Positions 34,949 to 57,319 of a DNA stretch of 64,000 bases are shown here, one piece after another. A model generated the notes under the pieces. The model was given only the letters and a program-made list of their open reading frames with translations, had not been told where the DNA came from and did no database searches. The stretch is from Nitrosopumilus oxyclinae (GTDB lineage Archaea > Thermoproteota > Nitrososphaeria > Nitrososphaerales > Nitrosopumilaceae). The position numbers were made by a program, and so were the translations under genes. The first letter of the stretch is position 1; the number at the start of each line of letters is the position of its first letter. Location of the stretch: positions 958,187 through 1,022,186 of the forward strand of contig NZ_CP026994.1 of assembly GCF_013407165.1 (NCBI RefSeq). Reading direction: 5' to 3'.

Positions 34949-35231
34949 ATGTGAGCTGGAGCACGACACGCTGCTACGGCAGAGGAAACTCCTCCCTCCA
35001 AACAGGAAATGTGATCTGGAGATAGATAATCAGAGATGGTTGGCAACGGAGCAGAAAATAATCCAATATGGCGCACTATGATGGCAAAACCTGAGGTTTC
35101 CATAAAAGGAATGAAAAAGACGACCCACATGGAGCAAAGCCAAACAGAACTAATAGTTCCTGTACTAAGTTCAGGTAGGCTGCAAAGCGAAATATCGTGA
35201 AAACAGAAGGAGGGTTACTCCCAGCACACAT
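34949..35231 (+). ncRNA. rnpB: RNase P RNA
   Basis: The catalytic RNA that removes 5' leaders of pre-tRNAs. Conserved elements are in the right order: GAGGAAACTCC near 34982 (CR-I), GGAGCAAAGCCAAACAG at 35131 and GGTAGGCTGC at 35174, which match the CR-IV/P15-P17 region of bacterial RNase P RNA, and ACAGAAGGAGGGTTACTCC near 35204 (CR-V). The ends pair as P1: ATGTGAGCTGG at 34949-34959 with CCAGCACACAT at 35221-35231, one mismatch. CR-I has AACTCC rather than the usual AAGTCC. Ends are estimated from P1. The frame on the minus strand across this gene is spurious. Confidence 0.93.
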
Positions 35232-51696: not shown

Positions 51697-51773
51697 TGGT
51701 GGGATCGGCGAAATTTGAATTCGCGACCTCTGCGTCCCAAACGCAGAATCATACCAAGCTAGACCACGATCCC
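51697..51773 (-). tRNA. tRNA-Pro (anticodon TGG)
   Basis: A complete cloverleaf on the minus strand: acceptor GGGATCG (51773-51767) pairs with CGATCCC (51707-51701), followed by discriminator A and an encoded CCA. The anticodon stem-loop is CTGCG-TTTGGGA-CGCAG with anticodon TGG, and the T-arm is GCGAA-TTCAAAT-TTCGC. There is no intron. A TATA-like GCTTAAATT lies about 27-35 nt upstream. It overlaps an upstream extension of the methionine aminopeptidase frame on the opposite strand, which is not coding. Confidence 0.95.
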
Positions 51774-54324: not shown

Positions 54325-54885
54325 ATGCCACAAACAAAACCAATGGTGAGTGTAGAAAACGTTGTAGCTTCAGCAGACGTAATGCAAAAAATGGACTTGA
54401 ATGATATTACTAGGAAATTTCCAGATGTAGAGTATCATCCAGACTCATTTCCAGGACTAGTATTCAGATTAAAAACTCCAAAAACGGCAACATTGATTTT
54501 CACGTCAGGTAAAATGGTGTGCACTGGTTCAAAATCCGAAGAATTGGCAAAAAAAGCAGTAAAAACAGTAGTACAAGATCTTCGAAAAGGAGGAATTAAG
54601 GTCAAAAAAAACGCAGTAGTAACAATTCAAAACATTGTGGCATCCATCAATTTAGGTGGAAAAATCCATTTGGAACAAGCTGCAAGAACATTACCACGAA
54701 GTATGTATGAACCTGAACAATTCCCAGGTCTTATTCATAGAATGGTAGATCCAAAGACAGTCATTTTATTATTCTCATCAGGAAAACTTGTATGTACAGG
54801 AGCTAAACATGAAGAAGACGTGTATCGTTCTGTAAATAATCTACACGCATTACTTGAAGAAAAAGAATTAATGATTTATGATTAA
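54325..54885 (+). CDS. tbp: TATA-box-binding protein
   Basis: A 186-aa TBP, the core promoter-recognition factor, made of two saddle repeats. Repeat 1 has ENVVASADVMQKMDL, FPGLVFRL and GKMVCTGSKS. Repeat 2 has QNIVASINLGGKIHL, FPGLIHRM and GKLVCTGAKHEED. A short acidic/hydrophobic C-terminal tail (EEKELMIYD) follows. ATG start. A single copy is visible; its partner TFB is encoded at 38821. Confidence 0.97.
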   Translation: MPQTKPMVSVENVVASADVMQKMDLNDITRKFPDVEYHPDSFPGLVFRLKTPKTATLIFTSGKMVCTGSKSEELAKKAVKTVVQDLRKGGIKVKKNAVVTIQNIVASINLGGKIHLEQAARTLPRSMYEPEQFPGLIHRMVDPKTVILLFSSGKLVCTGAKHEEDVYRSVNNLHALLEEKELMIYD

Positions 54886-54947
54886 TTTTCCAAATCAAAA
54901 ACTAATTTTCATTAATTTTAATTTAAAAAAATAATTTCTAATTTAGA

Positions 54948-55277
54948 TTATTTAATTGGACTTCCTAAAGGAACATCTTCTGTCACAGTCAACCAGAAAG
55001 GTTTGTCATCCACATCAGCTGCCAACAACATTGCATTTGATTCAACTCCTGCCATTTTTTTTGGTTCAAGATTTGCAATTACAATAACAGTTTTTCCAAC
55101 TATATCTTCAGGTCGATAATATTGTGCGCCTCCAATTATTACATCACGTTGATCATCATCACCCAAATCAATTCTACCTTTGATAATCCTAGATTTACCC
55201 TCAATTGGTTCAGTCGCAATAATTTTAGCAACACGAATGTCTAACTTTGCAAAGTCATCATAAGTTATCGTAGACAT
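54948..55277 (-). CDS. tRNA-binding domain protein (EMAP/CsaA type)
   Basis: A 109-aa stand-alone OB-fold of the tRNA-binding domain family found at the C-terminus of MetRS and in CsaA. Key segments are DFAKLDIRVAKIIATEPIEG, VIIGGAQYY and VIVIANLEPKKMAGVESNAM. It could act in trans as a MetRS beta-like subunit or as a chaperone, and no MetRS is nearby. ATG start. Confidence 0.88.
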   Translation of the reverse strand: MSTITYDDFAKLDIRVAKIIATEPIEGKSRIIKGRIDLGDDDQRDVIIGGAQYYRPEDIVGKTVIVIANLEPKKMAGVESNAMLLAADVDDKPFWLTVTEDVPLGSPIK

Positions 55278-55317
55278 GATAAAACCTAATTTTCCCCGTT
55301 AAAATGAATTTCGAATT

Positions 55318-55533
55318 TCATTGTAAATCTTTTTTGTTAATCCCACTTGTTTCAATCTCATACCTTAATGCTGCAGGAATTTCCATATACTTTTTGTTAA
55401 CTAATTCAACAATTTGATCTTCAGGAACATTGACTTTTTTCAATAATTTCCCTCGTTGATGAGCATATGCATTTTTCCAAAAACCTGCACCATCTAAAGT
55501 TTCAATTTTTGGCATGTATTTTGTTGGTTTCAT
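55318..55533 (-). CDS. small basic hypothetical protein
   Basis: A 71-aa basic protein (KPTKYMPKIETLDGAGFWKN, then HQRGKLLKKVNVPED) with no Cys or membrane segment. ATG start. A structured sequence immediately upstream (55553-55632) probably forms its RNA leader. I recognise no family; it may be a small nucleic-acid-binding protein. Confidence 0.6.
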   Translation of the reverse strand: MKPTKYMPKIETLDGAGFWKNAYAHQRGKLLKKVNVPEDQIVELVNKKYMEIPAALRYEIETSGINKKDLQ

Positions 55534-55552
55534 TTTTTTTCAAGTTTTAAGG

Positions 55553-55632
55553 GACTGTGACCGAAGAATGGCAAACGCCATTGGAACTGGAGTTAATGTT
55601 CCGGATTTTAGGCATGTTACCGATCACAGTCT
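55553..55632 (-). ncRNA. candidate structured leader or small RNA
   Basis: On the minus strand an 80-nt segment can fold into a closed multi-arm structure. The closing stem is GACTGTGA/TCACAGTC (8 bp). Inner hairpins are GGAAC/GTTCC (5 bp, 10-nt loop), AATGGC-GTTT-GCCATT (6 bp) and a possible GGTA-ACA-TGCC. A TATA-like TAAATATATTA on this strand (55664-55654) is about 26 nt upstream of the first base of the closing stem. It ends 19 nt before the ATG of the 71-aa protein. It matches no tRNA or known riboswitch I can name. Confidence 0.45.
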
Positions 55633-55653
55633 ATTTGAAACATTGTAAGAATC

Positions 55654-55664
55654 TAATATATTTA
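55654..55664. promoter_or_regulatory. near-palindromic TATA element usable in both directions
   Basis: TAATATATTTA lies 25-35 nt before the plus-strand SRPBCC ATG (55689), and about 26 nt before the start of the structured element on the minus strand. Its near symmetry would let it serve both. Confidence 0.45.
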
Positions 55665-55688
55665 ATGCGGAAGAGGGGACTTCATTCT

Positions 55689-56105
55689 ATGGCTACAATC
55701 CAAGTTGAAGTAGAAATCAATGCCTCAATAGACAAAGTGTGGGATATTGTTTCAGATATAGATAATGAACCAAAGTTTTGGAAGGGCACAAAAGAAGTCA
55801 GAAATATTTCAAAAGAAGGTAATACCATCAGTAGAGAAGTCATAATTGCGTTTAGAGATCAAAAATGCTTACAAGAAGTAAAAATTTACCCAAAAGAGAA
55901 AATTGAAGCACGATTCACCAAAGGTATAATCGATGGTGAAAAAATAGTATCATTGTCAGTCAAAGGTGAAAAAACAATACTTTCAACATATTGGGATATC
56001 AAACTAACAGGAGTGATGGGCATGTTTACAGGTATGATTAAAAAACACATCAAAAGTGGTACAAAGCAAGCCATGCAAAGTATCAAAGAAGAAATCGAGA
56101 GATAG
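55689..56105 (+). CDS. SRPBCC-family ligand-binding protein (START-like)
   Basis: A 138-aa START/Bet v1-like (polyketide-cyclase) helix-grip protein. It starts MATIQVEVEINASIDKVWDI and contains SDIDNEPKFWKGTKEV and the final long helix KSGTKQAMQSIKEEIE. Such proteins bind hydrophobic ligands or act in lipid or aromatic metabolism. I chose ATG 55689 because it has a TATA-like box 25-34 nt upstream. The open frame continues back to 55557 but that part overlaps the structured element. The glycosyltransferase gene follows after 5 nt. Confidence 0.8.
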   Translation: MATIQVEVEINASIDKVWDIVSDIDNEPKFWKGTKEVRNISKEGNTISREVIIAFRDQKCLQEVKIYPKEKIEARFTKGIIDGEKIVSLSVKGEKTILSTYWDIKLTGVMGMFTGMIKKHIKSGTKQAMQSIKEEIER

Positions 56106-56110
56106 ATTTC

Positions 56111-57319
56111 ATGGATTTAATCCTAGATATTTTCAATTATACATTAACTGCAATTCTAATTGGAATTTGTGGCGCATGGATTTTTCTTATCAAATCAATG
56201 CTTGAGTCATTTAGATTAACACCATATTTAGATAAATTTGAAAATACATCTAAAACAAATCCCAAAGTTTCAATAATTTTACCAGCAAGAAACGAAGAAG
56301 AGTTCATTGAAAAATGCCTAGATTCACTAGTTAAACAAAACTATGAAAATTATGAAATCATTGTAGTTGATGATTCGTCAGAAGATAAAACAGGAGAAAT
56401 AATTTCAGAATATGCAAAAAAATATCCAAAAATAATTCCAGTATCTGCAAGCCCAAAACCGGATGGATGGATGGGAAAGAACTGGGCATGCATGGAAGGT
56501 TACAAAAAAGCAACCGGTGAATTATTACTTTTTACTGATGCAGACACAAAACATGCAGAAAATGTCATAACACTTGCAGTAACTCATTTGAATTCATTTG
56601 GATTGGATGCATTATCAGCAATACCAAAAATGTTAACATTTGATTTTTGGACAAACATCACACTTCCAATGATTTCAACATTCTTGCATACTAGATTTTC
56701 AGCATTAAATGTAAACAATCCAGAAAAAAAGACAGGTTATTTTTTTGGGAGTTTCTTTATTCTTAAAAAAACAACATATCAAGAAGTGGGCACTCATGAA
56801 GGAGTCAAGCAAGAAATTATTGAAGACGGAGCATTAGGGAAAAAAGTCAAGGAGGCAGGATATAAAATGAAAATGGTTCGTGGAGAACATCTCATCGAAG
56901 CTATTTGGGCACGAGATAAGGGAACTTTATGGAATGCTCTAAAGAGGCTAATGGTGCCACTCTATCTACAGAGTGGAAAAATTGCAATAGGGATATTTTT
57001 TGCAATAGTATTTTTGTTATTTATCCCATTTCCAATATTCACAATTTCATCTATATTCCCAATAGAGTCAATATCTGCAAAAATACTTTGTATTGCATCT
57101 GCAATCGCTTCAATTCTGATTTACATTGGAGCAATTATTGAAGTGAAAATAGGTTTAAAATTAAAATTAGCATATGCAATATTTGCACCAGTAGGAAGTT
57201 TAGTAGTAGTCTTAGGATTTTTGAGTGGGTTGCTACAAGCTAAAAGAACATCTGCAGTAACATGGAGAGGTAGAAGTTATTCAATGAAAGATCATTCTCA
57301 AAGTTCAATTAGTGTATAG
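56111..57319 (+). CDS. membrane glycosyltransferase, family 2
   Basis: A 402-aa GT2-family enzyme: one N-terminal membrane segment, then the GT-A domain with VSIILPARNEEEFIEKCL, IVVDDSSEDKT, GWMGKNWACMEG and the metal-binding FTDADTKHA. About three C-terminal membrane segments follow. It resembles carotenoid- or hopanoid-associated glycosyltransferases (CruC/HpnB type), but lipid or surface glycan targets are possible. ATG start, 5 nt after the SRPBCC gene. Confidence 0.85.
   Translation: MDLILDIFNYTLTAILIGICGAWIFLIKSMLESFRLTPYLDKFENTSKTNPKVSIILPARNEEEFIEKCLDSLVKQNYENYEIIVVDDSSEDKTGEIISEYAKKYPKIIPVSASPKPDGWMGKNWACMEGYKKATGELLLFTDADTKHAENVITLAVTHLNSFGLDALSAIPKMLTFDFWTNITLPMISTFLHTRFSALNVNNPEKKTGYFFGSFFILKKTTYQEVGTHEGVKQEIIEDGALGKKVKEAGYKMKMVRGEHLIEAIWARDKGTLWNALKRLMVPLYLQSGKIAIGIFFAIVFLLFIPFPIFTISSIFPIESISAKILCIASAIASILIYIGAIIEVKIGLKLKLAYAIFAPVGSLVVVLGFLSGLLQAKRTSAVTWRGRSYSMKDHSQSSISV

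Follow-up and report, generated by a model that had tools for sequence, protein, structure and literature searches.

The trans-acting small RNAs of Methanosarcina and Haloferax are short, have their own promoters and form hairpins with unpaired pyrimidine-rich loops. A structured noncoding RNA of 229 nt, Tan1, has been found by its expression in marine Euryarchaeota (PMC5069720). We analyzed a 64,000-nucleotide stretch of the Nitrosopumilus oxyclinae genome (hereafter the window) and describe from its minus strand an RNA of about 80 nt. It is like the Methanosarcina and Haloferax RNAs in being short, in having its own promoter and in hairpins that expose unpaired pyrimidine-rich loops, but no homology to archaeal trans-acting sRNAs was detected through Rfam, and it is a single, family-specific RNA with strong covariation. 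Like Tan1, it is a structured noncoding RNA peculiar to one lineage of abundant marine archaea and belongs to no catalogued family; unlike Tan1, which comes from another phylum (PMC5069720), it is far shorter and is known here from sequence comparison. As in riboswitch leaders, a structured 5' element lies between promoter and gene in many genomes, but the RNA is not bound to one downstream gene, the next gene being unrelated or on the opposite strand in some genomes. It also has the single-hairpin form and similar size of archaeal H/ACA sRNAs, but neither their guide pocket nor a conserved free ACA box. With moderate confidence, we regard the locus as a putative gene for a small noncoding RNA of the Nitrosopumilaceae that is transcribed independently and most likely acts in trans.

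The first-pass annotation had described the segment as a candidate structured leader of a 71-aa gene, closed by an 8-bp stem and containing internal hairpins, of which AATGGC-GTTT-GCCATT and GGAAC/GTTCC were the clearest. A structured segment is indeed present: it folds at -28.8 kcal/mol, against a mean of -14.4 for shuffled sequences (z = -5.1; none of 200 shuffles was as good). The closing stem likewise exists, but with 10 rather than 8 base pairs, and although both hairpins can form in the window sequence, the fold that is conserved is a rod. This rod comprises P1 of 10 bp, a 7-nt bulge on the 3' side, P2 of 10 bp interrupted by a single bulged base, an internal loop of 8/3 nt (shorter in three divergent lineages), P3 of 5 bp and an apical loop of 10 nt. 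The elements of the locus, including the promoter and the adjacent gene, are as follows, with A2 denoting the second of the two alignments considered below:

55650-55663, minus strand: TATA box and its extension, AAATATATTAGATT, placed between about -31 and -18 relative to RNA base 1 in the majority of 56 copies
55553-55632, minus strand: structured, rod-shaped RNA gene of about 80 nt, described by covariance models R2 and R3 with a 25-pair consensus
55622-55631, minus strand: 5' strand of P1 (RNA 2-11), pairing with 55553-55562; double-sided changes in 8 of 10 pairs (A2)
55553-55562, minus strand: 3' strand of P1 (RNA 71-80), partner of 55622-55631
55611-55621, minus strand: 5' strand of P2 (RNA 12-22) with a bulged C at 55616, pairing with 55570-55579; its covarying positions are loops of the cloverleaf alternative
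55570-55579, minus strand: 3' strand of P2 (RNA 54-63), partner of 55611-55621
55603-55610, minus strand: 5' side of the internal loop, UAAAAUCC (RNA 23-30), facing AAU at 55580-55582; mostly 92-98% conserved
55598-55602, minus strand: 5' strand of P3 (RNA 31-35), with its 3' strand at 55583-55587; double-sided changes in 5 of 5 pairs (A2)
55588-55597, minus strand: apical loop, AUUAACUCCA (RNA 36-45); AACUCC invariant in all distinct copies
55563-55569, minus strand: 3' bulge AUUCUUC (RNA 64-70); A64, C67 and U68 invariant in all distinct copies
55318-55515, minus strand: small protein gene, probably encoding 65 aa from the second Met on (the full 71-aa frame spans 55318-55533); the RNA gene does not require it

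The rod and the three-hairpin fold were compared on two alignments. The first, a MAFFT alignment of 35 distinct RNA sequences with a mean column identity of 92%, was not fitted to the rod; RNAalifold recovered from it the rod and not three hairpins. On this alignment the rod has 10 pairs altered on both sides and scores 0.158 for covariation; the three-hairpin fold has 6 and 0.122. The second, A2, to which divergent copies were added by means of covariance model R2, is fitted to the rod and so favours it; here 19 of 25 rod pairs show double-sided changes, there are 137 compensating cells against a shuffle mean of 30, and the covariation score is 0.384 as opposed to 0.165 in shuffled alignments and at most 0.077 when the pairing partners are slid by 1-3 columns. 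Decisive between the folds are columns 15-74, 17-73, 21-71 and 22-70 of A2, which exchange A-U, U-A, C-G and G-C pairs in the rod. The three-hairpin fold places most of these covarying bases in loops and is therefore the less supported of the two. For the window sequence the folds are near-isoenergetic (-27.1 kcal/mol for the rod and -28.8 for three hairpins), and of 56 copies, 38 favour the rod. We thus rejected three hairpins, with the AATGGC hairpin and a short GGU/GCC hairpin, as the conserved fold, because bases that they leave in loops form covarying pairs of the rod in related genomes. Covariation among relatives had been named in advance as a test of the structure; it is strong, and the opposite outcome is decisively contradicted. 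G-U pairs on the minus strand outnumber A-C cells, which would be G-U pairs on the other strand, by 85 to 13, which identifies the minus strand as the transcribed one. A conserved, covarying structure thus lies on one strand, as expected of an independent RNA.

In most of the 56 copies, AAATATAT lies upstream of the rod, from -31 to -24 relative to RNA base 1, with TAGATT after it. The exact 14-mer AAATATATTAGATT has only two occurrences in the genome (1.59 Mb), the other being at G000:C1:240247-240260. The fixed distance of the TATA box leads us to expect transcription to start at or next to 55632, the foot of P1, in agreement with the earlier proposal that a TATA-like element places the RNA start at the structure. 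Judged by sequence evidence only, the RNA therefore has its own promoter at start distance, as an independent small RNA gene would. A further TATA-like box, that of the SRPBCC-fold protein gene at 55689-56105, overlaps the RNA promoter on the opposite strand.

Searches for known families bear out the first-pass statement that the segment matches no named riboswitch, sRNA or tRNA. In the window, Rfam 15 gave no match over the RNA at the gathering threshold; at a relaxed threshold the best E value was at chance level, and the divergent copies gave no match either. The only tRNA found in the window by ARAGORN and RF00005 is tRNA-Pro at 51697-51773. An archaeal RNase P RNA gene lies elsewhere in the window, at 34951-35229 (187 bits). 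Our search of openly accessible literature returned neither a description of this RNA nor any lineage-specific small RNA for Nitrosopumilaceae.

The RNA is present once in the 1.585-Mb genome of the window. A protein search with the adjacent 71-aa ORF gave matches in 116 of 200 genomes of the family, and the DNA upstream of the small gene held the same RNA, nearly unchanged, in 70 of the 90 loci examined. The covariance model detected it once per genome in 106 of the 200 Nitrosopumilaceae genomes; an improved model (R3) matched 138 of 400 genomes of the order, all of them Nitrosopumilaceae from 11 genera and all with one copy, which in one genome is split over two contig ends. Matches in a sample of 300 genomes of the phylum were likewise confined to Nitrosopumilaceae, and among near-complete genomes of the window's own genus the RNA is near-universal. 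A sequence-pattern search of GTDB r220 returned 111 matching stretches; among the 80 of these that were listed are records of Nitrosopumilus, Nitrosarchaeum, Nitrosopelagicus, Cenarchaeum, Nitrosomarinus, Nitrosomaritimum and archaea titled Thaumarchaeota, Nitrososphaerota or Nitrosopumilales. One listed record titled Nitrososphaeraceae is probably a naming matter, its contig having the length (20,125) of the g14 contig G075:C86 in Nitrosopumilaceae. Of the 22 genera sampled within the family, 11 yielded no copy, near-complete genomes included and with laxer filters in those re-searched; very divergent copies may be present in these genera. Weak model matches in G034 and other genomes without the RNA were dismissed as chance, having many broken pairs and in no case lying at the syntenic site; the viral contigs searched gave no match. 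The RNA occurs across many ocean and freshwater ammonia-oxidizing archaea, and ammonia-oxidizing archaea are the most abundant chemolithoautotrophs of the oxygenated ocean (PMC6593220). Supported by covariation, with its promoter at a fixed distance and a loop that does not vary, the RNA offers a concrete handle on RNA-based regulation in these organisms, and its coordinates allow a test against existing transcriptomes that needs no new experiments.

The adjacent protein gene probably does not begin at the ATG of the 71-aa frame, from which the first-pass annotation had read it. Conservation sets in at Met7 (55515), with the pattern M-[PTA]-K-I, residues 1-6 are not conserved, and several relatives have stop codons directly upstream of the second Met; together these point to a protein of 65 aa starting at 55515 and to a probable mis-annotation of this gene start. 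The window has an A/T-rich box, TTAAAACTT, at -35 to -27 of Met7, which g14 and g18 relatives lack at a fixed distance. AlphaFold2 predicts an all-helical protein (mean pLDDT 91) without a sequence match in Pfam, NCBIfam or PDB; its fold matches are all weak, the best Foldseek E being 2.3 and the best VIA Z being 4.2, which means little for a helical protein. The protein constitutes an orphan helical family widespread in Nitrosopumilaceae.

We tallied RNA and small gene by hand from the protein and covariance-model searches of the 200 family genomes. Scored for INDEPENDENCE from the small gene, the 106 RNA-bearing genomes comprise 78 in which the RNA adjoins the gene, 17 that have both but apart and 11 in which the gene was undetected; a further 21 of the 200 have the small gene without a detected RNA, and 73 have neither. 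In the adjacent arrangement the gene mostly starts roughly 28-40 nt past the RNA, and in the window and its close relatives no terminator-like T run lies between the two. Elsewhere the surroundings vary: the gene after the RNA is on the opposite strand in at least one genome each of g3, g12 and g2, and a different same-strand gene follows it in g19 and g15, where an A/T-rich TATA-like box starts directly after the RNA. More generally, the genes next to free-standing copies have A/T-rich TATA-like boxes of their own or run on the opposite strand. The proposal of a leader of the 71-aa gene thus fits the 78 genomes with adjacency, but not the 28 of 106 in which the gene is apart or undetected, in several of which an opposite-strand gene comes next. 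The RNA has no consistent position 5' of one gene or pathway, and its genomic position is independent of any one gene.

Positions 54325-57319 of the window and loci L003, L120, L129 and L268-L280 revealed that genes here follow a conserved order: glycosyltransferase, SRPBCC, (RNA), (small gene), tRNA-binding-domain protein and TBP. The RNA and small gene sit in it as a pair in Nitrosopumilus; some lineages lack the RNA there, some the small gene and some the tRNA-binding gene. In g15 and G001 the syntenic site keeps the RNA but has no small gene, and in G001 the tRNA-binding gene was not found either; in G016 the site has the small gene without the RNA. Both are missing from it in g9, g10, g12, g19 and one g3 genome (G002); in g12, g19 and the other g3 genomes the RNA was found elsewhere in the genome.

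If the locus is an independent RNA gene, RNA polymerase would begin transcription at the foot of P1, directed by a TATA box that is both strong and conserved, and the transcript of about 80 nt, which we infer to accumulate as a separate species, would fold into a long bulged rod exposing two invariant single-stranded elements, AACUCC in the apical loop and A..CU in the 3' bulge. The stems covary while AACUCC stays unchanged, which is the behaviour expected of a base-pairing seed or a protein site; the loop may serve in trans as either, and the bulge could provide a second contact, possibly for a protein. Any statement about targets is conjectural. AACUCC resembles the anti-Shine-Dalgarno end of 16S rRNA (AUCACCUCC), which raises the improbable idea of a trans-acting, family-wide translational regulator pairing with G-rich translation starts. 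GGAGTTA before ATG exceeds its reversed control in most RNA-bearing genomes, but base composition and codon use differ between these genomes, and the counts therefore support no conclusion. Complementarity to 16S and 23S rRNA in G000 and G019 yielded nothing long, a 6-nt GGAGTT match in 23S rRNA being at chance level, and RNase P RNA has no GGAGTT. No target or partner thus came out of the rRNA comparison in these two genomes or of the seed counts, which are confounded by base composition.

Against an independent RNA gene stands its place in the 78 genomes, on the strand of one and the same small gene and 5' of it; in the window, the two are not separated by any terminator-like T run. This adjacency, the recurrent spacing to the gene start and loops conserved as in aptamers are what a cis-acting leader would show, whether riboswitch-like or protein-responsive, the rod sensing a ligand or the encoded protein and controlling translation of the small gene or read-through into it. 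We consider such a leader doubtful: displaced copies precede unrelated or opposite-strand genes, the RNA was undetected in 21 genomes that have the gene, no conserved expression platform or ribosome-binding site lies between the two, and the window gene has its own A/T-rich box, even if this is not at a fixed distance in g14 and g18. Slightly easier to accept, while still unlikely, is a dual use in Nitrosopumilus-type genomes, with the RNA forming the 5' part of the gene transcript and being released by processing, so that it would be both leader and small RNA. The single strong promoter, situated upstream, and the uninterrupted adjacency in the window and its close relatives fit this arrangement; it is not needed where the RNA stands alone, and no conserved processing motif was seen. 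A role as leader or processed leader is accordingly possible within the 78-genome group.

A tentative but close rival, overlapping with the independent trans-acting RNA that we prefer, is that the RNA does not regulate by base pairing but has a housekeeping role, as the protein-binding scaffold in a small ribonucleoprotein. The invariant loop and bulge, the strong promoter and the near-universal presence in the window's genus would all suit a scaffold, but no partner protein was identified, and the RNA was not found in half of the genera sampled in the family, which argues against a general housekeeping RNA. A guide RNA is contradicted by the sequence and very improbable, despite the suggestive length, the single-hairpin shape and an ACA that many copies carry 3 nt before their 3' end: that ACA lies inside P1 and is not conserved (the ends being CACUAUA in g19 and CACGGCA in g15), the bulge by P1 is one-sided and leaves no two-armed H/ACA guide pocket, the C box RUGAUGA and D box CUGA, read by eye, are conserved in no column of the aligned copies, and Rfam offers no match. 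Least credible of all is a DNA element, an inverted repeat for replication, recombination or protein binding; the 10-bp repeat is fully paired in most copies, but the strand asymmetry of the G-U pairs, the TATA box at exact start distance and the covarying, bulged rod all speak for an RNA.

Two minor observations concern neighbouring genes. The SRPBCC-fold protein resembles the NCBIfam toxin model Rv0910 weakly (22.9 bits against a cut-off of 100), which probably reflects a shared fold only. In G019, a genome of 1,232,128 bp, the 16S rRNA gene follows the RNA at a distance of about 2.8 kb (G019:C1:474871-479161), probably by coincidence.
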